64,000 bases of DNA from Hippasteria phrygiana (lineage: Eukaryota > Echinodermata > Asteroidea > Valvatida > Goniasteridae), in contig JAZGUH010000529.1 in assembly GCA_037893225.1 (NCBI GenBank), positions 620,001 through 684,000 on the forward strand, in the 5' to 3' direction. The stretch's first letter is position 1. Each line of letters begins with the position of its first letter. Of this stretch, positions 23,446 to 64,000 are shown one piece after another. A model generated the notes under the pieces. That model was not told the origin of the DNA. It saw only the letters and a program-made list of their open reading frames with translations, and searched no databases. The position numbers and the translations under genes were made by a program.

Positions 23446-23550
23446 TAATGTATCGTGACTTTGGGCGTGATCATTGGCCACATGGGATTATGGCTTCTGA
23501 CCATAGCGCCCAACGAACACAAATATTGACTAATTGGGGAAGCGCCAACA

Positions 23551-27551: not shown

Positions 27552-27559
27552 ACAACATG

Positions 27560-37974: not shown

Positions 37975-38448
37975 GGGTGCATGCCACTAAATCTGTGAAA
38001 ATCACTGCGCGCGAGCTCATTAATATTTTGTGATCCCTCCGGTAATTTTGAATAAGAGGTCCCTGGGGCCTATAAATTGGACTGATTGTAGAAATATTTG
38101 TGGAAATCAAGAATTGGTGACCCGTGGCTTCCAACTCGGGGGATTCCGTTCACAAAAAAGACCAATACGTGGGTCTATTTGGCATAGAGGCGGGGGGATA
38201 CATTTAGACCTGGGCCCAGAGATGGGCCACCATTTTAGGGGTGGTTTGTAGGGAGGGGAGTATAAAAAAAAAAGAATTCCTTCAACTCTCATAAATTTGG
38301 AAAGAAAATGATTCTAGGAGTCTTAATCTTTAATTTCCAGTCAAAAAAATATTGCCACCTTACTCCTGAGCGTCACCAGGCGGCGCTATTTCTTTCTACT
38401 TTTGTGTTGGTTACAATGAGCGCCGTATTTAGTGGAGTGGAACCTATA
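37975..38448. repeat. 474-bp leader present only in long units
   Basis: Starts GGGTGCATGCCACTAAATC and ends GGAGTGGAACCTATA. It is present in units 1, 5, 6 and 7 and cleanly absent in units 2-4, where TATTAAA joins directly to TGAAGCC. GGGTGC occurs both at its start and 13 bp upstream in the preceding unit's tail. It lies directly before the endonuclease 5' exon, so it may hold promoter sequence. The small frames in it (about 60-73 codons) are not credible. Confidence 0.8.
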
Positions 38449-38935
38449 TGAAGCCAACATGGCGGCGCCCATATGCCAAGTGTACTCGCCAAAAATAGGT
38501 ATGTTTCATGTTTTGAACTATGAAATCTCACAGAAAACACAGTAATGATTACACACACGATAGAGAACAAAATGGGTTCTGTCTTTCTTTTCTTTTTTTG
38601 CTCTCGCTGTCTTTTTATTCACATACACATTTCAGATGCCTATCCGCCATGTTATCAACATGTTTACATTGGTTGCGCTGAGGCTCGTAAATTTACACGT
38701 GCTCTTTGTTACTGAAAATTAAAGACTTTTGTTGGACAAGTAAGTAGTTTGCCTGCATGGTTTCACCCAATATTTAGACTGAGATGTATATTTATTTATT
38801 TTTATTTGTAGCATGCCCAGGCTAGGGCTATCATGACTGCTGGAGAAAACTTTTGACCAATGGTAGCAAAGGTAAGTTGACCTCACGCTCGCGGTCTGTA
38901 TTGTTTGTTATGCAGATTTCTTAAACCATAGCAAA
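38449..38935 (+). promoter_or_regulatory. 5' leader of the endonuclease gene: YY1-like motif and three apparent introns
   Basis: Begins TGAAGCCAACATGGCGGCGC, a good YY1-type start motif. Consensus splice signals follow: donors at 38499 (ATAG|GTATGT), 38740 (ACAA|GTAAGT) and 38872 (AAAG|GTAAGT), and acceptors ending at 38635 (TTTCAG), 38811 (TTGTAG) and 38915 (ATGCAG). This predicts small exons 38449-38498, 38636-38739 and 38812-38871 before the coding exon from 38916. The ATG at 38459 would give a 39-residue upstream reading frame across the first junction. The same layout is repeated in all units. Confidence 0.6.
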
Positions 38936-39304
38936 ATGGATTCCATCTGGAAGGCCTCAATTAAAAGCAAGATTTTAAGAAAGACTGTACACAGAGGCAG
39001 AAAAAATTGTAGAATATGGACAGGATATGTCCAGCAGAAATATGGCATTATTAATGTTGTCATGCCTGGCTCAAAATCAAATTCACGCACAAGGATGCGT
39101 GTGCACAGGTTGACTTACATTGTTTATTCTGGAGTCCTTGATCTTCCCCGGGGGTATGATGTCAGTCACCTGTGCCACAACTCCTTGTGCGTGAATTTTG
39201 ATCACCTGTCACTTGAGCCACACGCCATCAACACTTCAAGATCTCGTTGTAAGAGATGCCGTTTGTGTTCGGGCCATGGCCCATACAAGGATTGTCTTCG
39301 TTAA
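38936..39304 (+). CDS. His-Cys box (I-PpoI-type) endonuclease, unit 1
   Basis: A 122-residue basic protein. The core reads VSHLCHNSLCVNFDH and then EPHAIN. With H78 as the catalytic His, C80, C85 and H90 fall at +2, +7 and +12, and N99 at +21. This is the same spacing as I-PpoI H98, C100, C105, H110 and N119. A second metal site is offered by C105, C108/C111, H114 and C120, close to the I-PpoI set C125, C132, H134, C138; C25 can serve as the distal first-site ligand. The family (zinc-binding loop of homing endonucleases) makes double-strand breaks with a single metal ion. The start follows a predicted acceptor at 38915. The gene converges on the transposase, with about 97 bp between stops. 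It is shorter than I-PpoI (163). The binding site is unknown. Confidence 0.88.
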   Translation: MDSIWKASIKSKILRKTVHRGRKNCRIWTGYVQQKYGIINVVMPGSKSNSRTRMRVHRLTYIVYSGVLDLPRGYDVSHLCHNSLCVNFDHLSLEPHAINTSRSRCKRCRLCSGHGPYKDCLR

Positions 39305-39401
39305 AATGTAATTAAGGATAACTTTTTGGCTCACCATTAAGTTTGATAACTGAAATTGCTCACCATGCATTTTTTGATGCTACACTTTTTGCTTTTATAA
39401 T

Positions 39402-41414
39402 TCATTTTTGATTGAAACGTATGCTGTAATTGTGCTCACTCTGAATTCTTTGCAAATCCACATCTGGAGGGATTGCTGACTTGGGTTCCAGTTGCCCTTT
39501 CTTGTACAATGACTTGGCACAGTTGTACAAGTTATATCGTTGTGCCCTACACTTTGCCCTTCGTATTTTATAATGTGTGCTCCTAGCCCGTTTGGAATGA
39601 TATTTTTCTTTTCTGTCCATTTCAGCCAGACTTTTGGCAGCTGCAGATCCTGGCAAAACAGGACAACCTGCAGCTTCACACTTGAGGATGATTGAGTTGG
39701 CATGGCCATTGTTGACAAGGTGAACTGCGCTGTGGTCTCTTGAGAGAGCATTTCTGGAAAAGGTTAGTGTCCCTTTTGGATTAGTACTTGAAAAAGCATG
39801 GTTCATGGACTCTGCTTTTTGTGTACTTGTCCCATATCTGGTTTTTTGCATTGCCTCGTGACCAATTCTCTTCTGAATTTTCAGTAAAAGCAGTTTCTTG
39901 TCAGACTCGAGCATTTTCAGTTTTCCCCTAACATGAACAGGAAGGTATGGAAATCTGTAATTGCCATTGCAAACCAAGGACCGCTTTTTGCAAAGGTTGT
40001 GGCGACCTTGGTAACATTCGGGAATGGTTGAGGCAGCCTGTTCAGCCATGTCATACATTTGGGCAAAGTTTCTTCCACATTTCTTGAGGATTGCCCCTGC
40101 TTCTGCTTGTACCCTGTGACTTACATCGTCACCTAACCGGTCTTATATCTTTTTCTTTTCTTTTTTAGTTCTACCAGGCATCATGTCACCACTGAATTTG
40201 GCCCGACTGATTGCAGAACCGAGTGATCGATTTAAGTGAGGTGGGTCAAGAAAGTGTTCTGGCTCGATACCTGCTTTAATTCTCATCTGAGACATAAAAC
40301 CTTTTGCCATACACCCGTCCGCATCGCTTGTTACTCTATCTGCCAACAAGGGTTCCTTACACTCTAGAAGTTTCTTGGCACATTGAATTCCCCCTTCTCT
40401 TTCATCCCCCATGTTGTAATTTGCTGGGCGTGTAGCGCTACAAGAATCTGTGTGCTCGGAACACTTGTTACTGCTGTGTTTGCCTGACATTTGATTTGCA
40501 CATTTACAGAGTTTATTCTCGTGGTGGTACATTACTACCATTTTTTTGGTGGTTACATTCTCACATACTACGTCCCTAGTTTGGGTTGCCGGCACAAATG
40601 GTGTTTTTTTCCGACAGTTTCTCAAGGGGTTATTGTATTGTCTATCTAATTCGACAGCAATCGGTTTTTCTCTGTCATAGCCCTGTAATTCTTGAATACC
40701 TTTGACCAGTTTTCTCTTTTCAGCCATACTTCTATCATTTTCATTGATAATAATGTCCCCACATTTGCTTGCTGTTTTCTGCAGCCCACTGATTGAAGGA
40801 ACAGTTGTACCCAATGCTGTCAAAAGTCGTCTTGCTCCTGTGGCTGCAATACCCGTGTTGAGGAGACCAACTTGGAAGGCCATGTTTGGAGTTGCAGTGC
40901 GTCGGCCTCTGCTGACCTGAGGTATCTCTGAGTACAGCTTCTTCCTTCCTGTCGAGAAGTGGCACTTGTTGCATGACAGCACCTCTGAAACAGCAAGGCC
41001 CCGGTGTGTTTCTTGCTCTGCCTGTAGCTGAGGCCAGCCATCACAGTCAGGATTCGCATGCTGATGGTCCAGTGCAGCTCGAACACTTGTCTCAACTGTA
41101 GTGTTGACATGAACAATTCTGTAGCCGCCTGGGTTCAAGTTGTCAGCTCCTTCCCTCTGGAGTCTGCTTATCGGCGTTATTTCCTCAATTTTCGGTCGCA
41201 GCACCATCACAGTTTTATTAGTTCTGGCACCTGGTGGGTTGTAGAAAGAACCTCGCTCATCTCTGGGAAAGGCCAGTTGCAATTGTTCATTTGTGGGTCT
41301 GATATAGGAAGATGAAACATCAGCCTTTTCTCTTATCAACTGACATGTCAGACCATTGCCTTTTTTAAAATAGGCTTTTTTCCTCTTAAACATGCCCTTT
41401 CTGTAGCGAACCAT
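39402..41414 (-). pseudogene. Mutator-like (MULE) transposase with one in-frame TAA, unit 1
   Basis: A minus-strand frame of about 670 codons from ATG 41414 (strong context CCACCATGG) to TGA at 39402, broken by one TAA at codon 424 (40143-40145). The frame continues unchanged after it: 28 codons and then 218 more. The layout follows the Mutator domain of animal MULEs: a basic N-terminus, HRGLAVSEVLSCNKC (C148, C151), NMAFQVGLLNTGIAATG, then PIAVELDRQYNN (D257), HHENKLCKC, NKCSEHTDSC and VTSDADG (D364/D366), followed after the stop by STQKAESMNH, whose Glu is about codon 535. D257, D364 or D366, and this Glu form a plausible D-D-E set. The C-terminus is basic (KKIQKR, RRAKCRAQR). Cut-and-paste transposition is the family role. 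The stop makes a full protein unlikely unless it is read through or edited. Confidence 0.8.
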
Positions 41415-42180
41415 GGTGGACCTTTCAGTTGGTGAGTAATTATGGTTATGAAGAGTTTTGTTTATTCCATGTCACTATGAACATCTAACAAAAAAATAAT
41501 GGTGCACTAACAATAAACATCCATTGTTACGCACGCCGAGCGTGCCGCGTGGTCACACTAAATTAGACTAGCAAAGCTATTGCATTTCATTCAGTGCATG
41601 CTTAAGTTACTGCTTCCCTGTTGTGCCAATAACCAAAGGCATTTTCTAAATATGAACTAGTTGGTGAAATGAAAATTATTAAATTCATAAAGCAAGTCAA
41701 AATGAATTCGATTTGTGACATTTCTATTTTCTTCAGAGTTTTGGCTTATCTTGCCTAATAGTATAGTTTGAAAAAATGTCTGAAATTCCCCAACCCACCA
41801 ATCTGACCATACTTCCCCCCCCCCCCCCCCCCACCCCACCCCACCCCAGAAAAAAAATGCTTAGGAAAACATTGGATCAAATAAAGAGGTTGCTAATGAA
41901 TTTAGAGTTTACTAGTGCTTGGTTTGTTTTAGTATCTTCAGTGTGTCGTGCATTTTTGTAAAGGAAGAGCTTCCCCTTTTGACTTGACTTTGCATTGGCA
42001 ATACATGCACCTTTGAATAACATGGCAAAAATCTGAGTATGCGGACTAAACTGTAGCGCCCCATTTTAGAACAGCAAGTCTATCGCATTTCATTTTTTGA
42101 AGTGGTTACTGTATTTTAGTTAAATTTTCACTGTTTTGAGGCCCATTTTTTCACCAAAGGCCCCAGTGGGTGCTATTAAA
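41415..42180. other. Noncoding tail of the unit
   Basis: 766 bp right of the transposase start, so it should contain the minus-strand promoter. It holds an 18-C run followed by three CCCCA repeats (41815-41848) and the hairpin near 41532. The same tail closes every complete unit. Small frames here are low-complexity or unsupported. Confidence 0.6.
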
Positions 42181-42667
42181 TGAAGCCAACATGGCGGCGC
42201 CCATATGCCAAGTGTACTCGCCAAAAATAGGTATGTTTCATGTTTTGAACTATGAAATCTCACAGAAAACACAGTAATGATTACACACACGATAGAGAAC
42301 AAAATGGGTTCTGTCTTTCTTTTCTTTTTTTGCTCTCGCTGTCTTTTTATTCACATACACATTTCAGATGCCTATCCGCCATGTTATCAACATGTTTACA
42401 TTGGTTGCGCTGAGGCTCGTAAATTTACACGTGCTCTTTGTTACTGAAAATTAAAGACTTTTGTTGGACAAGTAAGTAGTTTGCCTGCATGGTTTCACCC
42501 AATATTTAGACTGAGATGTATATTTATTTATTTTTATTTGTAGCATGCCCAGGCTAGGGCTATCATGACTGCTGGAGAAAACTTTTGACCAATGGTAGCA
42601 AAGGTAAGTTGACCTCACGCTCGCGGTCTGTATTGTTTGTTATGCAGATTTCTTAAACCATAGCAAA

Positions 42668-43036
42668 ATGGATTCCATCTGGAAGGCCTCAATTAAAAGC
42701 AAGATTTTAAGAAAGACTGTACACAGAGGCAGAAAAAATTGTAGAATATGGACAGGATATGTCCAGCAGAAATATGGCATTATTAATGTTGTCATGCCTG
42801 GCTCAAAATCAAATTCACGCACAAGGATGCGTGTGCACAGGTTGACTTACATTGTTTATTCTGGAGTCCTTGATCTTCCCCGGGGGTATGATGTCAGTCA
42901 CCTGTGCCACAACTCCTTGTGCGTGAATTTTGATCACCTGTCACTTGAGCCACACGCCATCAACACTTCAAGATCTCGTTGTAAGAGATGCCGTTTGTGT
43001 TCGGGCCATGGCCCATACAAGGATTGTCTTCGTTAA
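42668..43036 (+). CDS. His-Cys box endonuclease, unit 2
   Basis: Translation identical to the unit 1 copy; the 5' exons and splice signals are retained although the leader is absent. Confidence 0.88.
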   Translation: MDSIWKASIKSKILRKTVHRGRKNCRIWTGYVQQKYGIINVVMPGSKSNSRTRMRVHRLTYIVYSGVLDLPRGYDVSHLCHNSLCVNFDHLSLEPHAINTSRSRCKRCRLCSGHGPYKDCLR

Positions 43037-43133
43037 AATGTAATTAAGGATAACTTTTTGGCTCACCATTAAGTTTGATAACTGAAATTGCTCACCATGC
43101 ATTTTTTGATGCTACACTTTTTGCTTTTATAAT

Positions 43134-45146
43134 TCATTTTTGATTGAAACGTATGCTGTAATTGTGCTCACTCTGAATTCTTTGCAAATCCACATCTGGA
43201 GGGATTGCTGACTTGGGTTCCAGTTGCCCTTTCTTGTACAATGACTTGGCACAGTTGTACAAGTTATATCGTTGTGCCCTACACTTTGCCCTTCGTATTT
43301 TATAATGTGTGCTCCTAGCCCGTTTGGAATGATATTTTTCTTTTCTGTCCATTTCAGCCAGACTTTTGGCAGCTGCAGATCCTGGCAAAACAGGACAACC
43401 TGCAGCTTCACACTTGAGGATGATTGAGTTGGCATGGCCATTGTTGACAAGGTGAACTGCGCTGTGGTCTCTTGAGAGAGCATTTCTGGAAAAGGTTAGT
43501 GTCCCTTTTGGATTAGTACTTGAAAAAGCATGGTTCATGGACTCTGCTTTTTGTGTACTTGTCCCATATCTGGTTTTTTGCATTGCCTCGTGACCAATTC
43601 TCTTCTGAATTTTCAGTAAAAGCAGTTTCTTGTCAGACTCGAGCATTTTCAGTTTTCCCCTAACATGAACAGGAAGGTATGGAAATCTGTAATTGCCATT
43701 GCAAACCAAGGACCGCTTTTTGCAAAGGTTGTGGCGACCTTGGTAACATTCGGGAATGGTTGAGGCAGCCTGTTCAGCCATGTCATACATTTGGGCAAAG
43801 TTTCTTCCACATTTCTTGAGGATTGCCCCTGCTTCTGCTTGTACCCTGTGACTTACATCGTCACCTAACCGGTCTTATATCTTTTTCTTTTCTTTTTTAG
43901 TTCTACCAGGCATCATGTCACCACTGAATTTGGCCCGACTGATTGCAGAACCGAGTGATCGATTTAAGTGAGGTGGGTCAAGAAAGTGTTCTGGCTCGAT
44001 ACCTGCTTTAATTCTCATCTGAGACATAAAACCTTTTGCCATACACCCGTCCGCATCGCTTGTTACTCTATCTGCCAACAAGGGTTCCTTACACTCTAGA
44101 AGTTTCTTGGCACATTGAATTCCCCCTTCTCTTTCATCCCCCATGTTGTAATTTGCTGGGCGTGTAGCGCTACAAGAATCTGTGTGCTCGGAACACTTGT
44201 TACTGCTGTGTTTGCCTGACATTTGATTTGCACATTTACAGAGTTTATTCTCGTGGTGGTACATTACTACCATTTTTTTGGTGGTTACATTCTCACATAC
44301 TACGTCCCTAGTTTGGGTTGCCGGCACAAATGGTGTTTTTTTCCGACAGTTTCTCAAGGGGTTATTGTATTGTCTATCTAATTCGACAGCAATCGGTTTT
44401 TCTCTGTCATAGCCCTGTAATTCTTGAATACCTTTGACCAGTTTTCTCTTTTCAGCCATACTTCTATCATTTTCATTGATAATAATGTCCCCACATTTGC
44501 TTGCTGTTTTCTGCAGCCCACTGATTGAAGGAACAGTTGTACCCAATGCTGTCAAAAGTCGTCTTGCTCCTGTGGCTGCAATACCCGTGTTGAGGAGACC
44601 AACTTGGAAGGCCATGTTTGGAGTTGCAGTGCGTCGGCCTCTGCTGACCTGAGGTATCTCTGAGTACAGCTTCTTCCTTCCTGTCGAGAAGTGGCACTTG
44701 TTGCATGACAGCACCTCTGAAACAGCAAGGCCCCGGTGTGTTTCTTGCTCTGCCTGTAGCTGAGGCCAGCCATCACAGTCAGGATTCGCATGCTGATGGT
44801 CCAGTGCAGCTCGAACACTTGTCTCAACTGTAGTGTTGACATGAACAATTCTGTAGCCGCCTGGGTTCAAGTTGTCAGCTCCTTCCCTCTGGAGTCTGCT
44901 TATCGGCGTTATTTCCTCAATTTTCGGTCGCAGCACCATCACAGTTTTATTAGTTCTGGCACCTGGTGGGTTGTAGAAAGAACCTCGCTCATCTCTGGGA
45001 AAGGCCAGTTGCAATTGTTCATTTGTGGGTCTGATATAGGAAGATGAAACATCAGCCTTTTCTCTTATCAACTGACATGTCAGACCATTGCCTTTTTTAA
45101 AATAGGCTTTTTTCCTCTTAAACATGCCCTTTCTGTAGCGAACCAT
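43134..45146 (-). pseudogene. MULE transposase with in-frame TAA, unit 2
   Basis: Identical to unit 1, including the TAA at 43875-43877. Confidence 0.8.
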
Positions 45147-46399
45147 GGTGGACCTTTCAGTTGGTGAGTAATTATGGTTATGAAGAGTTTTGTTTATTCC
45201 ATGTCACTATGAACATCTAACAAAAAAATAATGGTGCACTAACAATAAACATCCATTGTTACGCACGCCGAGCGTGCCGCGTGGTCACACTAAATTAGAC
45301 TAGCAAAGCTATTGCATTTCATTCAGTGCATGCTTAAGTTACTGCTTCCCTGTTGTGCCAATAACCAAAGGCATTTTCTAAATATGAACTAGTTGGTGAA
45401 ATGAAAATTATTAAATTCATAAAGCAAGTCAAAATGAATTCGATTTGTGACATTTCTATTTTCTTCAGAGTTTTGGCTTATCTTGCCTAATAGTATAGTT
45501 TGAAAAAATGTCTGAAATTCCCCAACCCACCAATCTGACCATACTTCCCCCCCCCCCCCCCCCCACCCCACCCCACCCCAGAAAAAAAATGCTTAGGAAA
45601 ACATTGGATCAAATAAAGAGGTTGCTAATGAATTTAGAGTTTACTAGTGCTTGGTTTGTTTTAGTATCTTCAGTGTGTCGTGCATTTTTGTAAAGGAAGA
45701 GCTTCCCCTTTTGACTTGACTTTGCATTGGCAATACATGCACCTTTGAATAACATGGCAAAAATCTGAGTATGCGGACTAAACTGTAGCGCCCCATTTTA
45801 GAACAGCAAGTCTATCGCATTTCATTTTTTGAAGTGGTTACTGTATTTTAGTTAAATTTTCACTGTTTTGAGGCCCATTTTTTCACCAAAGGCCCCAGTG
45901 GGTGCTATTAAATGAAGCCAACATGGCGGCGCCCATATGCCAAGTGTACTCGCCAAAAATAGGTATGTTTCATGTTTTGAACTATGAAATCTCACAGAAA
46001 ACACAGTAATGATTACACACACGATAGAGAACAAAATGGGTTCTGTCTTTCTTTTCTTTTTTTGCTCTCGCTGTCTTTTTATTCACATACACATTTCAGA
46101 TGCCTATCCGCCATGTTATCAACATGTTTACATTGGTTGCGCTGAGGCTCGTAAATTTACACGTGCTCTTTGTTACTGAAAATTAAAGACTTTTGTTGGA
46201 CAAGTAAGTAGTTTGCCTGCATGGTTTCACCCAATATTTAGACTGAGATGTATATTTATTTATTTTTATTTGTAGCATGCCCAGGCTAGGGCTATCATGA
46301 CTGCTGGAGAAAACTTTTGACCAATGGTAGCAAAGGTAAGTTGACCTCACGCTCGCGGTCTGTATTGTTTGTTATGCAGATTTCTTAAACCATAGCAAA

Positions 46400-46768
46400 A
46401 TGGATTCCATCTGGAAGGCCTCAATTAAAAGCAAGATTTTAAGAAAGACTGTACACAGAGGCAGAAAAAATTGTAGAATATGGACAGGATATGTCCAGCA
46501 GAAATATGGCATTATTAATGTTGTCATGCCTGGCTCAAAATCAAATTCACGCACAAGGATGCGTGTGCACAGGTTGACTTACATTGTTTATTCTGGAGTC
46601 CTTGATCTTCCCCGGGGGTATGATGTCAGTCACCTGTGCCACAACTCCTTGTGCGTGAATTTTGATCACCTGTCACTTGAGCCACACGCCATCAACACTT
46701 CAAGATCTCGTTGTAAGAGATGCCGTTTGTGTTCGGGCCATGGCCCATACAAGGATTGTCTTCGTTAA
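46400..46768 (+). CDS. His-Cys box endonuclease, unit 3
   Basis: Translation identical to the unit 1 copy. Confidence 0.88.
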   Translation: MDSIWKASIKSKILRKTVHRGRKNCRIWTGYVQQKYGIINVVMPGSKSNSRTRMRVHRLTYIVYSGVLDLPRGYDVSHLCHNSLCVNFDHLSLEPHAINTSRSRCKRCRLCSGHGPYKDCLR

Positions 46769-46865
46769 AATGTAATTAAGGATAACTTTTTGGCTCACCA
46801 TTAAGTTTGATAACTGAAATTGCTCACCATGCATTTTTTGATGCTACACTTTTTGCTTTTATAAT

Positions 46866-48878
46866 TCATTTTTGATTGAAACGTATGCTGTAATTGTGCT
46901 CACTCTGAATTCTTTGCAAATCCACATCTGGAGGGATTGCTGACTTGGGTTCCAGTTGCCCTTTCTTGTACAATGACTTGGCACAGTTGTACAAGTTATA
47001 TCGTTGTGCCCTACACTTTGCCCTTCGTATTTTATAATGTGTGCTCCTAGCCCGTTTGGAATGATATTTTTCTTTTCTGTCCATTTCAGCCAGACTTTTG
47101 GCAGCTGCAGATCCTGGCAAAACAGGACAACCTGCAGCTTCACACTTGAGGATGATTGAGTTGGCATGGCCATTGTTGACAAGGTGAACTGCGCTGTGGT
47201 CTCTTGAGAGAGCATTTCTGGAAAAGGTTAGTGTCCCTTTTGGATTAGTACTTGAAAAAGCATGGTTCATGGACTCTGCTTTTTGTGTACTTGTCCCATA
47301 TCTGGTTTTTTGCATTGCCTCGTGACCAATTCTCTTCTGAATTTTCAGTAAAAGCAGTTTCTTGTCAGACTCGAGCATTTTCAGTTTTCCCCTAACATGA
47401 ACAGGAAGGTATGGAAATCTGTAATTGCCATTGCAAACCAAGGACCGCTTTTTGCAAAGGTTGTGGCGACCTTGGTAACATTCGGGAATGGTTGAGGCAG
47501 CCTGTTCAGCCATGTCATACATTTGGGCAAAGTTTCTTCCACATTTCTTGAGGATTGCCCCTGCTTCTGCTTGTACCCTGTGACTTACATCGTCACCTAA
47601 CCGGTCTTATATCTTTTTCTTTTCTTTTTTAGTTCTACCAGGCATCATGTCACCACTGAATTTGGCCCGACTGATTGCAGAACCGAGTGATCGATTTAAG
47701 TGAGGTGGGTCAAGAAAGTGTTCTGGCTCGATACCTGCTTTAATTCTCATCTGAGACATAAAACCTTTTGCCATACACCCGTCCGCATCGCTTGTTACTC
47801 TATCTGCCAACAAGGGTTCCTTACACTCTAGAAGTTTCTTGGCACATTGAATTCCCCCTTCTCTTTCATCCCCCATGTTGTAATTTGCTGGGCGTGTAGC
47901 GCTACAAGAATCTGTGTGCTCGGAACACTTGTTACTGCTGTGTTTGCCTGACATTTGATTTGCACATTTACAGAGTTTATTCTCGTGGTGGTACATTACT
48001 ACCATTTTTTTGGTGGTTACATTCTCACATACTACGTCCCTAGTTTGGGTTGCCGGCACAAATGGTGTTTTTTTCCGACAGTTTCTCAAGGGGTTATTGT
48101 ATTGTCTATCTAATTCGACAGCAATCGGTTTTTCTCTGTCATAGCCCTGTAATTCTTGAATACCTTTGACCAGTTTTCTCTTTTCAGCCATACTTCTATC
48201 ATTTTCATTGATAATAATGTCCCCACATTTGCTTGCTGTTTTCTGCAGCCCACTGATTGAAGGAACAGTTGTACCCAATGCTGTCAAAAGTCGTCTTGCT
48301 CCTGTGGCTGCAATACCCGTGTTGAGGAGACCAACTTGGAAGGCCATGTTTGGAGTTGCAGTGCGTCGGCCTCTGCTGACCTGAGGTATCTCTGAGTACA
48401 GCTTCTTCCTTCCTGTCGAGAAGTGGCACTTGTTGCATGACAGCACCTCTGAAACAGCAAGGCCCCGGTGTGTTTCTTGCTCTGCCTGTAGCTGAGGCCA
48501 GCCATCACAGTCAGGATTCGCATGCTGATGGTCCAGTGCAGCTCGAACACTTGTCTCAACTGTAGTGTTGACATGAACAATTCTGTAGCCGCCTGGGTTC
48601 AAGTTGTCAGCTCCTTCCCTCTGGAGTCTGCTTATCGGCGTTATTTCCTCAATTTTCGGTCGCAGCACCATCACAGTTTTATTAGTTCTGGCACCTGGTG
48701 GGTTGTAGAAAGAACCTCGCTCATCTCTGGGAAAGGCCAGTTGCAATTGTTCATTTGTGGGTCTGATATAGGAAGATGAAACATCAGCCTTTTCTCTTAT
48801 CAACTGACATGTCAGACCATTGCCTTTTTTAAAATAGGCTTTTTTCCTCTTAAACATGCCCTTTCTGTAGCGAACCAT
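46866..48878 (-). pseudogene. MULE transposase with in-frame TAA, unit 3
   Basis: Identical to unit 1; TAA at 47607-47609. Confidence 0.8.
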
Positions 48879-50131
48879 GGTGGACCTTTCAGTTGGTGAG
48901 TAATTATGGTTATGAAGAGTTTTGTTTATTCCATGTCACTATGAACATCTAACAAAAAAATAATGGTGCACTAACAATAAACATCCATTGTTACGCACGC
49001 CGAGCGTGCCGCGTGGTCACACTAAATTAGACTAGCAAAGCTATTGCATTTCATTCAGTGCATGCTTAAGTTACTGCTTCCCTGTTGTGCCAATAACCAA
49101 AGGCATTTTCTAAATATGAACTAGTTGGTGAAATGAAAATTATTAAATTCATAAAGCAAGTCAAAATGAATTCGATTTGTGACATTTCTATTTTCTTCAG
49201 AGTTTTGGCTTATCTTGCCTAATAGTATAGTTTGAAAAAATGTCTGAAATTCCCCAACCCACCAATCTGACCATACTTCCCCCCCCCCCCCCCCCCACCC
49301 CACCCCACCCCAGAAAAAAAATGCTTAGGAAAACATTGGATCAAATAAAGAGGTTGCTAATGAATTTAGAGTTTACTAGTGCTTGGTTTGTTTTAGTATC
49401 TTCAGTGTGTCGTGCATTTTTGTAAAGGAAGAGCTTCCCCTTTTGACTTGACTTTGCATTGGCAATACATGCACCTTTGAATAACATGGCAAAAATCTGA
49501 GTATGCGGACTAAACTGTAGCGCCCCATTTTAGAACAGCAAGTCTATCGCATTTCATTTTTTGAAGTGGTTACTGTATTTTAGTTAAATTTTCACTGTTT
49601 TGAGGCCCATTTTTTCACCAAAGGCCCCAGTGGGTGCTATTAAATGAAGCCAACATGGCGGCGCCCATATGCCAAGTGTACTCGCCAAAAATAGGTATGT
49701 TTCATGTTTTGAACTATGAAATCTCACAGAAAACACAGTAATGATTACACACACGATAGAGAACAAAATGGGTTCTGTCTTTCTTTTCTTTTTTTGCTCT
49801 CGCTGTCTTTTTATTCACATACACATTTCAGATGCCTATCCGCCATGTTATCAACATGTTTACATTGGTTGCGCTGAGGCTCGTAAATTTACACGTGCTC
49901 TTTGTTACTGAAAATTAAAGACTTTTGTTGGACAAGTAAGTAGTTTGCCTGCATGGTTTCACCCAATATTTAGACTGAGATGTATATTTATTTATTTTTA
50001 TTTGTAGCATGCCCAGGCTAGGGCTATCATGACTGCTGGAGAAAACTTTTGACCAATGGTAGCAAAGGTAAGTTGACCTCACGCTCGCGGTCTGTATTGT
50101 TTGTTATGCAGATTTCTTAAACCATAGCAAA

Positions 50132-50500: not shown

Positions 50501-50597
50501 AATGTAATTAAGGATAACTTTTTGGCTCACCATTAAGTTTGATAACTGAAATTGCTCACCATGCATTTTTTGATGCTACACTTTTTGCTTTTATAAT

Positions 50598-52610: not shown

Positions 52611-54337
52611 GGTGGACCTTTCAGTTGGTGAGTAATTATGGTTATGAAGAGTTTTGTTTATTCCATGTCACTATGAACATCTAACAAAAAAATAATGGTG
52701 CACTAACAATAAACATCCATTGTTACGCACGCCGAGCGTGCCGCGTGGTCACACTAAATTAGACTAGCAAAGCTATTGCATTTCATTCAGTGCATGCTTA
52801 AGTTACTGCTTCCCTGTTGTGCCAATAACCAAAGGCATTTTCTAAATATGAACTAGTTGGTGAAATGAAAATTATTAAATTCATAAAGCAAGTCAAAATG
52901 AATTCGATTTGTGACATTTCTATTTTCTTCAGAGTTTTGGCTTATCTTGCCTAATAGTATAGTTTGAAAAAATGTCTGAAATTCCCCAACCCACCAATCT
53001 GACCATACTTCCCCCCCCCCCCCCCCCCACCCCACCCCACCCCAGAAAAAAAATGCTTAGGAAAACATTGGATCAAATAAAGAGGTTGCTAATGAATTTA
53101 GAGTTTACTAGTGCTTGGTTTGTTTTAGTATCTTCAGTGTGTCGTGCATTTTTGTAAAGGAAGAGCTTCCCCTTTTGACTTGACTTTGCATTGGCAATAC
53201 ATGCACCTTTGAATAACATGGCAAAAATCTGAGTATGCGGACTAAACTGTAGCGCCCCATTTTAGAACAGCAAGTCTATCGCATTTCATTTTTTGAAGTG
53301 GTTACTGTATTTTAGTTAAATTTTCACTGTTTTGAGGCCCATTTTTTCACCAAAGGCCCCAGTGGGTGCTATTAAAGGGTGCATGCCACTAAATCTGTGA
53401 AAATCACTGCGCGCGAGCTCATTAATATTTTGTGATCCCTCCGGTAATTTTGAATAAGAGGTCCCTGGGGCCTATAAATTGGACTGATTGTAGAAATATT
53501 TGTGGAAATCAAGAATTGGTGACCCGTGGCTTCCAACTCGGGGGATTCCGTTCACAAAAAAGACCAATACGTGGGTCTATTTGGCATAGAGGCGGGGGGA
53601 TACATTTAGACCTGGGCCCAGAGATGGGCCACCATTTTAGGGGTGGTTTGTAGGGAGGGGAGTATAAAAAAAAAAGAATTCCTTCAACTCTCATAAATTT
53701 GGAAAGAAAATGATTCTAGGAGTCTTAATCTTTAATTTCCAGTCAAAAAAATATTGCCACCTTACTCCTGAGCGTCACCAGGCGGCGCTATTTCTTTCTA
53801 CTTTTGTGTTGGTTACAATGAGCGCCGTATTTAGTGGAGTGGAACCTATATGAAGCCAACATGGCGGCGCCCATATGCCAAGTGTACTCGCCAAAAATAG
53901 GTATGTTTCATGTTTTGAACTATGAAATCTCACAGAAAACACAGTAATGATTACACACACGATAGAGAACAAAATGGGTTCTGTCTTTCTTTTCTTTTTT
54001 TGCTCTCGCTGTCTTTTTATTCACATACACATTTCAGATGCCTATCCGCCATGTTATCAACATGTTTACATTGGTTGCGCTGAGGCTCGTAAATTTACAC
54101 GTGCTCTTTGTTACTGAAAATTAAAGACTTTTGTTGGACAAGTAAGTAGTTTGCCTGCATGGTTTCACCCAATATTTAGACTGAGATGTATATTTATTTA
54201 TTTTTATTTGTAGCATGCCCAGGCTAGGGCTATCATGACTGCTGGAGAAAACTTTTGACCAATGGTAGCAAAGGTAAGTTGACCTCACGCTCGCGGTCTG
54301 TATTGTTTGTTATGCAGATTTCTTAAACCATAGCAAA

Positions 54338-54706
54338 ATGGATTCCATCTGGAAGGCCTCAATTAAAAGCAAGATTTTAAGAAAGACTGTACACAGAGGC
54401 AGAAAAAATTGTAGAATATGGACAGGATATGTCCAGCAGAAATATGGCATTATTAATGTTGTCATGCCTGGCTCAAAATCAAATTCACGCACAAGGATGC
54501 GTGTGCACAGGTTGACTTACATTGTTTATTCTGGAGTCCTTGATCTTCCCCGGGGGTATGATGTCAGTCACCTGTGCCACAACTCCTTGTGCGTGAATTT
54601 TGATCACCTGTCACTTGAGCCACACGCCATCAACACTTCAAGATCTCGTTGTAAGAGATGCCGTTTGTGTTCGGGCCATGGCCCATACAAGGATTGTCTT
54701 CGTTAA
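54338..54706 (+). CDS. His-Cys box endonuclease, unit 5
   Basis: Translation identical to the unit 1 copy. Confidence 0.88.
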   Translation: MDSIWKASIKSKILRKTVHRGRKNCRIWTGYVQQKYGIINVVMPGSKSNSRTRMRVHRLTYIVYSGVLDLPRGYDVSHLCHNSLCVNFDHLSLEPHAINTSRSRCKRCRLCSGHGPYKDCLR

Positions 54707-54803
54707 AATGTAATTAAGGATAACTTTTTGGCTCACCATTAAGTTTGATAACTGAAATTGCTCACCATGCATTTTTTGATGCTACACTTTTTGCTTTTAT
54801 AAT

Positions 54804-56816
54804 TCATTTTTGATTGAAACGTATGCTGTAATTGTGCTCACTCTGAATTCTTTGCAAATCCACATCTGGAGGGATTGCTGACTTGGGTTCCAGTTGCCCT
54901 TTCTTGTACAATGACTTGGCACAGTTGTACAAGTTATATCGTTGTGCCCTACACTTTGCCCTTCGTATTTTATAATGTGTGCTCCTAGCCCGTTTGGAAT
55001 GATATTTTTCTTTTCTGTCCATTTCAGCCAGACTTTTGGCAGCTGCAGATCCTGGCAAAACAGGACAACCTGCAGCTTCACACTTGAGGATGATTGAGTT
55101 GGCATGGCCATTGTTGACAAGGTGAACTGCGCTGTGGTCTCTTGAGAGAGCATTTCTGGAAAAGGTTAGTGTCCCTTTTGGATTAGTACTTGAAAAAGCA
55201 TGGTTCATGGACTCTGCTTTTTGTGTACTTGTCCCATATCTGGTTTTTTGCATTGCCTCGTGACCAATTCTCTTCTGAATTTTCAGTAAAAGCAGTTTCT
55301 TGTCAGACTCGAGCATTTTCAGTTTTCCCCTAACATGAACAGGAAGGTATGGAAATCTGTAATTGCCATTGCAAACCAAGGACCGCTTTTTGCAAAGGTT
55401 GTGGCGACCTTGGTAACATTCGGGAATGGTTGAGGCAGCCTGTTCAGCCATGTCATACATTTGGGCAAAGTTTCTTCCACATTTCTTGAGGATTGCCCCT
55501 GCTTCTGCTTGTACCCTGTGACTTACATCGTCACCTAACCGGTCTTATATCTTTTTCTTTTCTTTTTTAGTTCTACCAGGCATCATGTCACCACTGAATT
55601 TGGCCCGACTGATTGCAGAACCGAGTGATCGATTTAAGTGAGGTGGGTCAAGAAAGTGTTCTGGCTCGATACCTGCTTTAATTCTCATCTGAGACATAAA
55701 ACCTTTTGCCATACACCCGTCCGCATCGCTTGTTACTCTATCTGCCAACAAGGGTTCCTTACACTCTAGAAGTTTCTTGGCACATTGAATTCCCCCTTCT
55801 CTTTCATCCCCCATGTTGTAATTTGCTGGGCGTGTAGCGCTACAAGAATCTGTGTGCTCGGAACACTTGTTACTGCTGTGTTTGCCTGACATTTGATTTG
55901 CACATTTACAGAGTTTATTCTCGTGGTGGTACATTACTACCATTTTTTTGGTGGTTACATTCTCACATACTACGTCCCTAGTTTGGGTTGCCGGCACAAA
56001 TGGTGTTTTTTTCCGACAGTTTCTCAAGGGGTTATTGTATTGTCTATCTAATTCGACAGCAATCGGTTTTTCTCTGTCATAGCCCTGTAATTCTTGAATA
56101 CCTTTGACCAGTTTTCTCTTTTCAGCCATACTTCTATCATTTTCATTGATAATAATGTCCCCACATTTGCTTGCTGTTTTCTGCAGCCCACTGATTGAAG
56201 GAACAGTTGTACCCAATGCTGTCAAAAGTCGTCTTGCTCCTGTGGCTGCAATACCCGTGTTGAGGAGACCAACTTGGAAGGCCATGTTTGGAGTTGCAGT
56301 GCGTCGGCCTCTGCTGACCTGAGGTATCTCTGAGTACAGCTTCTTCCTTCCTGTCGAGAAGTGGCACTTGTTGCATGACAGCACCTCTGAAACAGCAAGG
56401 CCCCGGTGTGTTTCTTGCTCTGCCTGTAGCTGAGGCCAGCCATCACAGTCAGGATTCGCATGCTGATGGTCCAGTGCAGCTCGAACACTTGTCTCAACTG
56501 TAGTGTTGACATGAACAATTCTGTAGCCGCCTGGGTTCAAGTTGTCAGCTCCTTCCCTCTGGAGTCTGCTTATCGGCGTTATTTCCTCAATTTTCGGTCG
56601 CAGCACCATCACAGTTTTATTAGTTCTGGCACCTGGTGGGTTGTAGAAAGAACCTCGCTCATCTCTGGGAAAGGCCAGTTGCAATTGTTCATTTGTGGGT
56701 CTGATATAGGAAGATGAAACATCAGCCTTTTCTCTTATCAACTGACATGTCAGACCATTGCCTTTTTTAAAATAGGCTTTTTTCCTCTTAAACATGCCCT
56801 TTCTGTAGCGAACCAT
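54804..56816 (-). pseudogene. MULE transposase with in-frame TAA, unit 5
   Basis: Identical to unit 1; TAA at 55545-55547. Confidence 0.8.
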
Positions 56817-58542
56817 GGTGGACCTTTCAGTTGGTGAGTAATTATGGTTATGAAGAGTTTTGTTTATTCCATGTCACTATGAACATCTAACAAAAAAATA
56901 ATGGTGCACTAACAATAAACATCCATTGTTACGCACGCCGAGCGTGCCGCGTGGTCACACTAAATTAGACTAGCAAAGCTATTGCATTTCATTCAGTGCA
57001 TGCTTAAGTTACTGCTTCCCTGTTGTGCCAATAACCAAAGGCATTTTCTAAATATGAACTAGTTGGTGAAATGAAAATTATTAAATTCATAAAGCAAGTC
57101 AAAATGAATTCGATTTGTGACATTTCTATTTTCTTCAGAGTTTTGGCTTATCTTGCCTAATAGTATAGTTTGAAAAAATGTCTGAAATTCCCCAACCCAC
57201 CAATCTGACCATACTTCCCCCCCCCCCCCCCCCACCCCACCCCACCCCAGAAAAAAAATGCTTAGGAAAACATTGGATCAAATAAAGAGGTTGCTAATGA
57301 ATTTAGAGTTTACTAGTGCTTGGTTTGTTTTAGTATCTTCAGTGTGTCGTGCATTTTTGTAAAGGAAGAGCTTCCCCTTTTGACTTGACTTTGCATTGGC
57401 AATACATGCACCTTTGAATAACATGGCAAAAATCTGAGTATGCGGACTAAACTGTAGCGCCCCATTTTAGAACAGCAAGTCTATCGCATTTCATTTTTTG
57501 AAGTGGTTACTGTATTTTAGTTAAATTTTCACTGTTTTGAGGCCCATTTTTTCACCAAAGGCCCCAGTGGGTGCTATTAAAGGGTGCATGCCACTAAATC
57601 TGTGAAAATCACTGCGCGCGAGCTCATTAATATTTTGTGATCCCTCCGGTAATTTTGAATAAGAGGTCCCTGGGGCCTATAAATTGGACTGATTGTAGAA
57701 ATATTTGTGGAAATCAAGAATTGGTGACCCGTGGCTTCCAACTCGGGGGATTCCGTTCACAAAAAAGACCAATACGTGGGTCTATTTGGCATAGAGGCGG
57801 GGGGATACATTTAGACCTGGGCCCAGAGATGGGCCACCATTTTAGGGGTGGTTTGTAGGGAGGGGAGTATAAAAAAAAAAGAATTCCTTCAACTCTCATA
57901 AATTTGGAAAGAAAATGATTCTAGGAGTCTTAATCTTTAATTTCCAGTCAAAAAAATATTGCCACCTTACTCCTGAGCGTCACCAGGCGGCGCTATTTCT
58001 TTCTACTTTTGTGTTGGTTACAATGAGCGCCGTATTTAGTGGAGTGGAACCTATATGAAGCCAACATGGCGGCGCCCATATGCCAAGTGTACTCGCCAAA
58101 AATAGGTATGTTTCATGTTTTGAACTATGAAATCTCACAGAAAACACAGTAATGATTACACACACGATAGAGAACAAAATGGGTTCTGTCTTTCTTTTCT
58201 TTTTTTGCTCTCGCTGTCTTTTTATTCACATACACATTTCAGATGCCTATCCGCCATGTTATCAACATGTTTACATTGGTTGCGCTGAGGCTCGTAAATT
58301 TACACGTGCTCTTTGTTACTGAAAATTAAAGACTTTTGTTGGACAAGTAAGTAGTTTGCCTGCATGGTTTCACCCAATATTTAGACTGAGATGTATATTT
58401 ATTTATTTTTATTTGTAGCATGCCCAGGCTAGGGCTATCATGACTGCTGGAGAAAACTTTTGACCAATGGTAGCAAAGGTAAGTTGACCTCACGCTCGCG
58501 GTCTGTATTGTTTGTTATGCAGATTTCTTAAACCATAGCAAA

Positions 58543-58911
58543 ATGGATTCCATCTGGAAGGCCTCAATTAAAAGCAAGATTTTAAGAAAGACTGTACACA
58601 GAGGCAGAAAAAATTGTAGAATATGGACAGGATATGTCCAGCAGAAATATGGCATTATTAATGTTGTCATGCCTGGCTCAAAATCAAATTCACGCACAAG
58701 GATGCGTGTGCACAGGTTGACTTACATTGTTTATTCTGGAGTCCTTGATCTTCCCCGGGGGTATGATGTCAGTCACCTGTGCCACAACTCCTTGTGCGTG
58801 AATTTTGATCACCTGTCACTTGAGCCACACGCCATCAACACTTCAAGATCTCGTTGTAAGAGATGCCGTTTGTGTTCGGGCCATGGCCCATACAAGGATT
58901 GTCTTCGTTAA
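58543..58911 (+). CDS. His-Cys box endonuclease, unit 6
   Basis: Translation identical to the unit 1 copy. Confidence 0.88.
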   Translation: MDSIWKASIKSKILRKTVHRGRKNCRIWTGYVQQKYGIINVVMPGSKSNSRTRMRVHRLTYIVYSGVLDLPRGYDVSHLCHNSLCVNFDHLSLEPHAINTSRSRCKRCRLCSGHGPYKDCLR

Positions 58912-59008
58912 AATGTAATTAAGGATAACTTTTTGGCTCACCATTAAGTTTGATAACTGAAATTGCTCACCATGCATTTTTTGATGCTACACTTTTTGCT
59001 TTTATAAT

Positions 59009-61021
59009 TCATTTTTGATTGAAACGTATGCTGTAATTGTGCTCACTCTGAATTCTTTGCAAATCCACATCTGGAGGGATTGCTGACTTGGGTTCCAGTT
59101 GCCCTTTCTTGTACAATGACTTGGCACAGTTGTACAAGTTATATCGTTGTGCCCTACACTTTGCCCTTCGTATTTTATAATGTGTGCTCCTAGCCCGTTT
59201 GGAATGATATTTTTCTTTTCTGTCCATTTCAGCCAGACTTTTGGCAGCTGCAGATCCTGGCAAAACAGGACAACCTGCAGCTTCACACTTGAGGATGATT
59301 GAGTTGGCATGGCCATTGTTGACAAGGTGAACTGCGCTGTGGTCTCTTGAGAGAGCATTTCTGGAAAAGGTTAGTGTCCCTTTTGGATTAGTACTTGAAA
59401 AAGCATGGTTCATGGACTCTGCTTTTTGTGTACTTGTCCCATATCTGGTTTTTTGCATTGCCTCGTGACCAATTCTCTTCTGAATTTTCAGTAAAAGCAG
59501 TTTCTTGTCAGACTCGAGCATTTTCAGTTTTCCCCTAACATGAACAGGAAGGTATGGAAATCTGTAATTGCCATTGCAAACCAAGGACCGCTTTTTGCAA
59601 AGGTTGTGGCGACCTTGGTAACATTCGGGAATGGTTGAGGCAGCCTGTTCAGCCATGTCATACATTTGGGCAAAGTTTCTTCCACATTTCTTGAGGATTG
59701 CCCCTGCTTCTGCTTGTACCCTGTGACTTACATCGTCACCTAACCGGTCTTATATCTTTTTCTTTTCTTTTTTAGTTCTACCAGGCATCATGTCACCACT
59801 GAATTTGGCCCGACTGATTGCAGAACCGAGTGATCGATTTAAGTGAGGTGGGTCAAGAAAGTGTTCTGGCTCGATACCTGCTTTAATTCTCATCTGAGAC
59901 ATAAAACCTTTTGCCATACACCCGTCCGCATCGCTTGTTACTCTATCTGCCAACAAGGGTTCCTTACACTCTAGAAGTTTCTTGGCACATTGAATTCCCC
60001 CTTCTCTTTCATCCCCCATGTTGTAATTTGCTGGGCGTGTAGCGCTACAAGAATCTGTGTGCTCGGAACACTTGTTACTGCTGTGTTTGCCTGACATTTG
60101 ATTTGCACATTTACAGAGTTTATTCTCGTGGTGGTACATTACTACCATTTTTTTGGTGGTTACATTCTCACATACTACGTCCCTAGTTTGGGTTGCCGGC
60201 ACAAATGGTGTTTTTTTCCGACAGTTTCTCAAGGGGTTATTGTATTGTCTATCTAATTCGACAGCAATCGGTTTTTCTCTGTCATAGCCCTGTAATTCTT
60301 GAATACCTTTGACCAGTTTTCTCTTTTCAGCCATACTTCTATCATTTTCATTGATAATAATGTCCCCACATTTGCTTGCTGTTTTCTGCAGCCCACTGAT
60401 TGAAGGAACAGTTGTACCCAATGCTGTCAAAAGTCGTCTTGCTCCTGTGGCTGCAATACCCGTGTTGAGGAGACCAACTTGGAAGGCCATGTTTGGAGTT
60501 GCAGTGCGTCGGCCTCTGCTGACCTGAGGTATCTCTGAGTACAGCTTCTTCCTTCCTGTCGAGAAGTGGCACTTGTTGCATGACAGCACCTCTGAAACAG
60601 CAAGGCCCCGGTGTGTTTCTTGCTCTGCCTGTAGCTGAGGCCAGCCATCACAGTCAGGATTCGCATGCTGATGGTCCAGTGCAGCTCGAACACTTGTCTC
60701 AACTGTAGTGTTGACATGAACAATTCTGTAGCCGCCTGGGTTCAAGTTGTCAGCTCCTTCCCTCTGGAGTCTGCTTATCGGCGTTATTTCCTCAATTTTC
60801 GGTCGCAGCACCATCACAGTTTTATTAGTTCTGGCACCTGGTGGGTTGTAGAAAGAACCTCGCTCATCTCTGGGAAAGGCCAGTTGCAATTGTTCATTTG
60901 TGGGTCTGATATAGGAAGATGAAACATCAGCCTTTTCTCTTATCAACTGACATGTCAGACCATTGCCTTTTTTAAAATAGGCTTTTTTCCTCTTAAACAT
61001 GCCCTTTCTGTAGCGAACCAT
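59009..61021 (-). pseudogene. MULE transposase with in-frame TAA, unit 6
   Basis: Identical to unit 1; TAA at 59750-59752. Confidence 0.8.
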
Positions 61022-62748
61022 GGTGGACCTTTCAGTTGGTGAGTAATTATGGTTATGAAGAGTTTTGTTTATTCCATGTCACTATGAACATCTAACAAAA
61101 AAATAATGGTGCACTAACAATAAACATCCATTGTTACGCACGCCGAGCGTGCCGCGTGGTCACACTAAATTAGACTAGCAAAGCTATTGCATTTCATTCA
61201 GTGCATGCTTAAGTTACTGCTTCCCTGTTGTGCCAATAACCAAAGGCATTTTCTAAATATGAACTAGTTGGTGAAATGAAAATTATTAAATTCATAAAGC
61301 AAGTCAAAATGAATTCGATTTGTGACATTTCTATTTTCTTCAGAGTTTTGGCTTATCTTGCCTAATAGTATAGTTTGAAAAAATGTCTGAAATTCCCCAA
61401 CCCACCAATCTGACCATACTTCCCCCCCCCCCCCCCCCCACCCCACCCCACCCCAGAAAAAAAATGCTTAGGAAAACATTGGATCAAATAAAGAGGTTGC
61501 TAATGAATTTAGAGTTTACTAGTGCTTGGTTTGTTTTAGTATCTTCAGTGTGTCGTGCATTTTTGTAAAGGAAGAGCTTCCCCTTTTGACTTGACTTTGC
61601 ATTGGCAATACATGCACCTTTGAATAACATGGCAAAAATCTGAGTATGCGGACTAAACTGTAGCGCCCCATTTTAGAACAGCAAGTCTATCGCATTTCAT
61701 TTTTTGAAGTGGTTACTGTATTTTAGTTAAATTTTCACTGTTTTGAGGCCCATTTTTTCACCAAAGGCCCCAGTGGGTGCTATTAAAGGGTGCATGCCAC
61801 TAAATCTGTGAAAATCACTGCGCGCGAGCTCATTAATATTTTGTGATCCCTCCGGTAATTTTGAATAAGAGGTCCCTGGGGCCTATAAATTGGACTGATT
61901 GTAGAAATATTTGTGGAAATCAAGAATTGGTGACCCGTGGCTTCCAACTCGGGGGATTCCGTTCACAAAAAAGACCAATACGTGGGTCTATTTGGCATAG
62001 AGGCGGGGGGATACATTTAGACCTGGGCCCAGAGATGGGCCACCATTTTAGGGGTGGTTTGTAGGGAGGGGAGTATAAAAAAAAAAGAATTCCTTCAACT
62101 CTCATAAATTTGGAAAGAAAATGATTCTAGGAGTCTTAATCTTTAATTTCCAGTCAAAAAAATATTGCCACCTTACTCCTGAGCGTCACCAGGCGGCGCT
62201 ATTTCTTTCTACTTTTGTGTTGGTTACAATGAGCGCCGTATTTAGTGGAGTGGAACCTATATGAAGCCAACATGGCGGCGCCCATATGCCAAGTGTACTC
62301 GCCAAAAATAGGTATGTTTCATGTTTTGAACTATGAAATCTCACAGAAAACACAGTAATGATTACACACACGATAGAGAACAAAATGGGTTCTGTCTTTC
62401 TTTTCTTTTTTTGCTCTCGCTGTCTTTTTATTCACATACACATTTCAGATGCCTATCCGCCATGTTATCAACATGTTTACATTGGTTGCGCTGAGGCTCG
62501 TAAATTTACACGTGCTCTTTGTTACTGAAAATTAAAGACTTTTGTTGGACAAGTAAGTAGTTTGCCTGCATGGTTTCACCCAATATTTAGACTGAGATGT
62601 ATATTTATTTATTTTTATTTGTAGCATGCCCAGGCTAGGGCTATCATGACTGCTGGAGAAAACTTTTGACCAATGGTAGCAAAGGTAAGTTGACCTCACG
62701 CTCGCGGTCTGTATTGTTTGTTATGCAGATTTCTTAAACCATAGCAAA

Positions 62749-63117
62749 ATGGATTCCATCTGGAAGGCCTCAATTAAAAGCAAGATTTTAAGAAAGACTG
62801 TACACAGAGGCAGAAAAAATTGTAGAATATGGACAGGATATGTCCAGCAGAAATATGGCATTATTAATGTTGTCATGCCTGGCTCAAAATCAAATTCACG
62901 CACAAGGATGCGTGTGCACAGGTTGACTTACATTGTTTATTCTGGAGTCCTTGATCTTCCCCGGGGGTATGATGTCAGTCACCTGTGCCACAACTCCTTG
63001 TGCGTGAATTTTGATCACCTGTCACTTGAGCCACACGCCATCAACACTTCAAGATCTCGTTGTAAGAGATGCCGTTTGTGTTCGGGCCATGGCCCATACA
63101 AGGATTGTCTTCGTTAA
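62749..63117 (+). CDS. His-Cys box endonuclease, unit 7
   Basis: Translation identical to the unit 1 copy. Confidence 0.88.
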   Translation: MDSIWKASIKSKILRKTVHRGRKNCRIWTGYVQQKYGIINVVMPGSKSNSRTRMRVHRLTYIVYSGVLDLPRGYDVSHLCHNSLCVNFDHLSLEPHAINTSRSRCKRCRLCSGHGPYKDCLR

Positions 63118-63214
63118 AATGTAATTAAGGATAACTTTTTGGCTCACCATTAAGTTTGATAACTGAAATTGCTCACCATGCATTTTTTGATGCTACACTT
63201 TTTGCTTTTATAAT

Positions 63215-64000
63215 TCATTTTTGATTGAAACGTATGCTGTAATTGTGCTCACTCTGAATTCTTTGCAAATCCACATCTGGAGGGATTGCTGACTTGGGTT
63301 CCAGTTGCCCTTTCTTGTACAATGACTTGGCACAGTTGTACAAGTTATATCGTTGTGCCCTACACTTTGCCCTTCGTATTTTATAATGTGTGCTCCTAGC
63401 CCGTTTGGAATGATATTTTTCTTTTCTGTCCATTTCAGCCAGACTTTTGGCAGCTGCAGATCCTGGCAAAACAGGACAACCTGCAGCTTCACACTTGAGG
63501 ATGATTGAGTTGGCATGGCCATTGTTGACAAGGTGAACTGCGCTGTGGTCTCTTGAGAGAGCATTTCTGGAAAAGGTTAGTGTCCCTTTTGGATTAGTAC
63601 TTGAAAAAGCATGGTTCATGGACTCTGCTTTTTGTGTACTTGTCCCATATCTGGTTTTTTGCATTGCCTCGTGACCAATTCTCTTCTGAATTTTCAGTAA
63701 AAGCAGTTTCTTGTCAGACTCGAGCATTTTCAGTTTTCCCCTAACATGAACAGGAAGGTATGGAAATCTGTAATTGCCATTGCAAACCAAGGACCGCTTT
63801 TTGCAAAGGTTGTGGCGACCTTGGTAACATTCGGGAATGGTTGAGGCAGCCTGTTCAGCCATGTCATACATTTGGGCAAAGTTTCTTCCACATTTCTTGA
63901 GGATTGCCCCTGCTTCTGCTTGTACCCTGTGACTTACATCGTCACCTAACCGGTCTTATATCTTTTTCTTTTCTTTTTTAGTTCTACCAGGCATCATGTC
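63215..64000 (-). pseudogene. MULE transposase, C-terminal part, unit 7 (N-terminus beyond window)
   Basis: The last 218 codons and the preceding 28 are present, and the same TAA lies at 63956-63958. The remainder runs off the right edge. Confidence 0.78.

Follow-up and report, generated by a model that had tools for sequence, protein, structure and literature searches.

The window analysed here is a 64,000-bp stretch of the Hippasteria phrygiana genome (assembly GCA_037893225.1, positions 620,001 to 684,000 of contig JAZGUH010000529.1, hereafter C529). Two-gene units were found head-to-tail from position 37975 to 64000, with 99.94-100% identity in a self-comparison, and each unit carries a plus-strand nuclease gene converging on a minus-strand transposase frame (Table 1). 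In unit 1, the plus-strand open frame of 142 amino acids (aa), 122 aa from the ATG, matched PF05551 zf-His_Me_endon (E 9.4e-11), and the minus-strand frame matched PF20700 'Mutator' (E 3.2e-40); the other array units were near-identical to unit 1. The self-comparison and the two Pfam matches confirmed the arrangement of at least seven such units that had been proposed in an original prediction made from the DNA letters. The pairing of the genes stood, but the description of the unit had to be amended, as an in-frame stop interrupts the transposase of every unit, and a 470-bp direct repeat accompanies some units but not others. The element interior (INT, ~3.73 kb) and this long terminal direct repeat (LTDR, ~470 bp) recur at two unit spacings, 3732 bp for INT-INT and 4205-4206 bp for LTDR-INT. 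Seven nuclease genes begin inside the window and two more past it, nine INTs being present in the genome, and the right end of the array lies outside the window, at window coordinate 73927 (C529:693927). The array is very probably a KolobokP element, of the kind described by Kojima and Bao in 2022 (PMC9587614), that carries a transposase together with a homing-type nuclease and has grown in place from one insertion without a working transposase of its own.

When one array unit was searched against the 944-Mb genome, 25 matches were obtained (20 of 1798 candidates scored). Single-copy insertions at C13, C885, C610 and C609 have the same ends as the array, with an LTDR of 469-471 bp on both sides of a ~3.73-kb interior. 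The LTDR starts with GGGTGC and ends with GGAACC; its inverted tips, GGGTGCATGCCACTAAAT versus GGTTCCACTCCACTAAAT, agree by eye at 14 of 18 positions and end in GG...CC, and the LTDR carries its own short inverted tips of the form 5'-RR...YY-3'. Solo LTDRs with 4-bp duplications were found at C689, C314, C570 and C244, and (LTDR-INT)n multimer arrays on C529 and C707/C760. The original prediction had postulated a composite mobile element, to be given up if the two genes never co-occurred outside this locus. The gene pair was found outside it, in single-copy insertions with flanks of their own, and at these insertions the ends of the element could be defined as ~470-bp LTDRs with short target duplications. 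It is therefore extremely improbable that two unrelated elements landed together and were amplified by chance, because the same pair with the same ends stands at separate loci with separate flanks, and such a pair is the hallmark of KolobokP in seven animal phyla (PMC9587614). No evidence for two separate elements was found, and this origin was rejected.

A perfect 4-bp target duplication was present at 9 of the 13 loci with both flanks read (C754 and C272 counted once), and duplications of 5 bp and 3 bp were read at C13 and C147b, respectively. Among 12 four-base target words, the third base was A in every case and the fourth a purine in 11. In this tally, C13 and C610 contribute one reading each, and TTAT was deduced from the left end on C707 combined with the right end on C760. 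Both C147 repeats were excluded, as were the one-sided ends at C533 and C86; TTGT follows these ends and departs from the trend. In sequence, the target words amount to a degenerate version of the TTAA seen in the Kolobok superfamily. The same flanks were read at C754 and C272, and the same right flank at C86 and C533; both pairs are probably duplicate haplotypes in the assembly.

Searches for relatives returned 41 sequences for the nuclease and 19 for the transposase. A nuclease profile of 28 sequences, comprising the window sequence and 27 of these 41, matched I-PpoI chains at E 1.7e-6. In the corresponding alignment, S77, H78, C80, C85, E94 and N99 were invariant and H90 was conserved in at least 90%, and when aligned to I-PpoI the nuclease has its zinc-binding His/Cys residues and its catalytic H and N. 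The four best Protein Data Bank (PDB) matches of the AlphaFold model of the nuclease (mean pLDDT 95) were all I-PpoI (Foldseek E 7e-3 to 9e-3, probability 0.98-1.00), with TM-scores of 0.52-0.61 by query. The nuclease frame is identical in 9 of 9 array INTs.

The transposase stop at codon 424 is likewise common to 9 of 9 array INTs and precedes the second zinc finger and the presumed last catalytic E. Candidate motifs occur in Kolobok order (ELDRQYN 255, TSDADG 362, LDPPHLNRS 389, CYQGRHNLC 467, TQKAESMNH 531), as placed by eye from the description in PMC9587614 and not via alignment to a reference Kolobok protein; the signature given there consists of D, a CCHC finger, D, D/CxxH, a second finger and E. 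Open transposase frames are found at C13, C610 and C609 and in the C707/C760 copies. The initial assignment to a Mutator-like element (MULE) transposase agreed with the PF20700 match, but the Kolobok superfamily fits better because of the short TTAA-like target duplications and the candidate DxxH and zinc-finger motifs, which are features of this superfamily according to PMC9587614. For 7 of the 19 transposase relatives, which come from metagenomes (P0001-P0004, P0007, P0009, P0010), the longest contig measures 4.1-4.5 kb, about one LTDR-INT, and may represent circles or collapsed repeats.

A single ACAG duplication brackets the whole nine-INT array, indicating that the array most likely stems from one insertion. 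Among all 36 pairs of the nine INTs, only one base column was variable, at the junction base, with the ninth INT read over 3458 of 3735 bases and gap columns (mostly the unread ninth) uncounted. The C707/C760 array and the single insertions differ from the window-array INTs by 13-21 substitutions; seven INTs sampled from C707/C760 had zero substitutions among them, and both frames were open in 6 of 6 tested. The window array contains INT-INT junctions of two types, one without TATA from one tip and the other without TAAA from the other tip, which points to at least two separate losses, each of an LTDR (or whole monomer) and one flanking 4-bp copy. Taken together, the shared stop, the lack of INT divergence and the single duplication indicate growth in place from one insertion without a working transposase of the array itself. 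Growth by recombination is established as far as sequence can establish it, and the trigger of the exchanges is one that we infer. The LTDR losses would have been made by transposase acting in trans, the array would have grown by unequal exchange or break-induced repair, and the family nuclease, from this or other loci, may cut and start that repair.

Alternatively, the array could have been built by repeated transposition, that is by tandem insertion of whole elements or LTDR-INT circles, with transposase from intact copies elsewhere and the nuclease irrelevant. The open transposase frames listed above are compatible with such a supply, circular intermediates are discussed in PMC9587614, and the metagenome contigs of about one LTDR-INT would fit circles, although collapsed repeats would look alike. 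This route is nevertheless unlikely, since no sign of a second founder was seen: the nine INTs share one stop and have no substitution outside the junction base, whereas the insertions elsewhere are set apart from them by the substitutions given above.

Table 1. Features of the nuclease-transposase array in window coordinates.
Feature	Coordinates	Strand	Length	Remarks
Left target-site duplication, ACAG	37971..37974		4 bp	Right copy directly after C529:693927; based on the flanks at both array ends
LTDR 1	37975..38444	+	470 bp	GGGTGC...GGAACC; imperfect 18-bp terminal inverted repeat
(INT)4 block	38445..53376	+		INT starts 38445, 42177, 45909, 49641; no LTDR between; 4-bp TATA tip absent at junctions 42177, 45909, 49641
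His-Cys box (I-PpoI-like) nuclease gene, unit 1	38936..39304	+	122 aa	Identical copies start at 42668, 46400, 50132, 54338, 58543, 62749
Kolobok-type DDE transposase gene, unit 1	39402..41414	-	670 codons	Stop at codon 424 (40143-40145)
LTDR 2	53377..53846	+		
INT 5	53847..57581	+	3735 bp	
LTDR 3	57582..58051	+		
INT 6	58052..61787	+		
LTDR 4	61788..62257	+		
INT 7	62258..64000	+		Clipped at window end; then INT 8, INT 9 and LTDR 5 up to C529:693927

Copies related to those of the array make up repeat blocks of 100 kb and more at other places in the genome. The nuclease core gave 740 matches within three mismatches and the transposase 5' end 670, with zero for control patterns, and the places listed are the first 100 per pattern; with units of ~4 kb, the family is estimated, though not measured, to occupy about 3 Mb. 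All 150 nuclease copies scored (of 919 candidates, a set biased to the best copies) were open, 109 of them on C328 over 692.6 kb (C328:225907-918902). There, 91 of the 108 spacings between listed copies corresponded to units of either ~3.11 kb (25) or ~4.2-4.5 kb (66); the remaining 17 were gaps of 7.5-74 kb in which unlisted copies may lie, so that a single unbroken array is not established. The C328 unit that was read (3114 bp, within C328:617950-621650) has an open nuclease and a dead transposase, which lacks about its first fifth and carries stops and an out-of-frame stretch in the remaining N-terminal half. Synonymous and non-synonymous differences among the nucleases are too few to reveal selection; between the window and C328, for example, they number three and four codons, respectively.

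A search with the transposase C-terminus (150 of 1289 candidates scored) gave 84 matches on C616 and 27 on C513, spread over 404 kb and 118 kb, respectively, and each of these 111 carried one stop. One nuclease was read on each of these contigs, and both carried the same one-base insertion near codon 4, the shifted frame having no ATG opening before residue 43. By exact pattern, the shifted nuclease start occurs in 161 copies and the unshifted start in 461, and all 100 listed places of the former are on C513 and C616. The two blocks (C616:795543-1200466 and C513:415961-535341) lie in opposite orientation and, with their common frameshift, could be parts of a single array that is interrupted by a gap in the assembly. 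Further arrays among the listed places are on C32, C151, C110 and C287. On C151 (395127-732527), 4.4-4.5-kb units are mixed with ~2.1-kb units retaining the nuclease core. The transposase 5' pattern revealed two arrays on C110, at C110:377880-533244 and C110:1053194-1118818, with ~4.4-kb and ~3.65-kb spacing, respectively; no C110 place appeared among the listed nuclease-core or nuclease-start matches, though the exact matches listed run past that contig number, which suggests that its nucleases are diverged or missing.

Several results weigh against the reading of the window array as a nuclease-bearing KolobokP element grown in place. I-PpoI was not recovered in a PDB search with the single nuclease sequence, and Foldseek with the nuclease model returned no match at E 0.001 (best 7e-3). 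An exact target duplication was absent at C610, where 3 of 4 bases match, and at C147a, and the lack of INT divergence could partly reflect assembly polishing. By similarity to I-PpoI, no homing site for the nuclease was found: the best I-PpoI-like site in the unit matched at 11 of 15 positions, and at least 11 were reached in 22 of 40 randomised units. All randomised sequences here were sampled so as to keep the dinucleotide steps of the original. Finally, the 161 copies with a frameshifted nuclease start imply that nuclease made within an array seems not to be needed.

The proposal that nuclease-made breaks drive array expansion is left unproven by the lack of a standout site in the unit and by these frameshifted copies. 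Within the LTDR, the best I-PpoI-like site reached 10 of 15, and at least 10 were found in 86 of 200 randomised LTDRs. LTDR ends abutted with the observed spacers matched the I-PpoI site at 8-10 of 15 positions, and 51 of 3000 randomised 26-mers reached at least 10; this likeness is suggestive only. The window array argues that array-made transposase is unnecessary for growth, and C616/C513 argue the same for array-made nuclease, unless the damage postdates growth and was spread by homogenisation. Nuclease from intact arrays may act in trans.

It is quite possible, without being the outcome we would favour, that growth was that of a passive macrosatellite, driven by ordinary unequal crossing-over between long direct repeats with neither enzyme acting after insertion. 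The frameshifted copies, with all 100 listed on C513/C616, the stop in 111 of 111 listed transposase C-terminal matches on the same contigs and the dead transposase of the single C328 unit read are consistent with this process. The unshifted start retained in 461 copies and the 109 of 109 listed C328 nucleases that are open despite the dead transposase of the unit read argue against it, although weakly, since only the best-scoring copies are listed and copies within an array are not independent of each other. Passive growth is a version of the growth step in the preferred reading of one insertion grown in place, and the probabilities of the two overlap.

More tentatively, and with considerable doubt, nuclease from intact arrays might cut KolobokP DNA genome-wide, and repair off neighbours might grow and homogenise arrays of hundreds of kb even with dead genes, forming a selfish macrosatellite. 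If true, the spread of arrays would be uncoupled from transposition. The genome provides a natural experiment for the role proposed for the nuclease. Within one young family, the arrays have kept different genes intact: in the window array, the transposase is broken and the nuclease intact in 9 of 9 units, in another array both are open in the tested copies, and a further array carries a frameshifted nuclease. Whether a homing endonuclease can build satellite DNA in animals could be learned by comparing growth and homogenisation among these arrays.

Elsewhere in the window, an open 690-aa P-element-type transposase frame (TNP-like RNase H domains, Tnp_P_element) lies at 12941-15013. Reverse-transcriptase-like frames, judged by eye to belong to non-LTR (long terminal repeat) retrotransposons, are located at 2508-7119 and 18135-20105, and inverted duplicates of ~90-92% identity at 22516-24083 and 26242-27560. 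A satellite of ~200-bp units occupies 28708-36666 upstream of the array, and what looks by eye like a diverged copy lies near 37500-37625; the satellite showed no similarity to the transposon.

Mutator-like elements (MuDR, MULE) have 8-11-bp target duplications and long terminal inverted repeats as their main ends. The element described here shares with them the Pfam PF20700 name "Mutator-like transposase" but has 3-5-bp TTAA-like duplications and direct terminal repeats, and the MULE superfamily was rejected on these grounds; "MULE" is the Pfam label for what PMC9587614 files under Kolobok. The His-Cys box homing endonuclease I-PpoI (PDB 1a73, 1evw) gave the best fold matches to the nuclease and a profile match over the active site (S-H-L-C-H-N, C, H, E, N and C positions), whereas I-PpoI is encoded by a group I intron and has 162-163 aa, and the present nuclease is transposon-encoded and has 122 aa. 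Homing endonucleases of the His-Cys box class cut DNA at specific sequences and leave 4-nt 3' overhangs. In the Pacific oyster, CgiSat13 and CgiSat16 are tandem repeats with 2414-bp monomers labelled DNA/Kolobok, making up 0.11% and 0.07% of the genome (PMC8268682). Tandem Kolobok-type repeats are common to both animals, as compared by description, and the oyster repeats have no nuclease link in the available text of PMC8268682.

The combination of the two genes, of which the original prediction knew no described animal example, was published in 2022 as KolobokP, with arrays and nuclease-driven unequal exchange included (PMC9587614). KolobokP is described there as having LTDRs of ~450 or ~660 bp with inverted tips and a DDE transposase with an opposite-strand His-Me nuclease. 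The same paper reports solo LTDRs and multimers as well as INT-INT junctions without 3-4 bp, which it attributes to excision, and it already proposes nuclease-induced unequal crossover and circular intermediates as mechanisms (PMC9587614). Within the literature searched, the name KolobokP was found in that paper only, and no other paper describing the transposase-nuclease combination was found, as judged by titles and abstract openings; the word "satellite" is absent from the main text of PMC9587614. The window element shares with KolobokP the LTDR-INT-LTDR organisation, the ~450-bp LTDR class with inverted tips, the opposite-strand DDE transposase and His-Me nuclease, solo LTDRs and multimers, 3-5-bp target duplications, and INT-INT junctions at which 4 bp are missing from one tip or the other (3-4 bp in KolobokP). 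It differs in its larger scale, with 740 nuclease-core matches and listed copies on one contig spanning 0.69 Mb, in its N-T-A-R target-duplication trend, whereas PMC9587614 reports no strong target preference, and in that both genes are apparently broken in some large arrays. The element belongs to an already published kind, and the scale of its arrays and their mix of broken and intact genes seem to go beyond what the available text of PMC9587614 describes.

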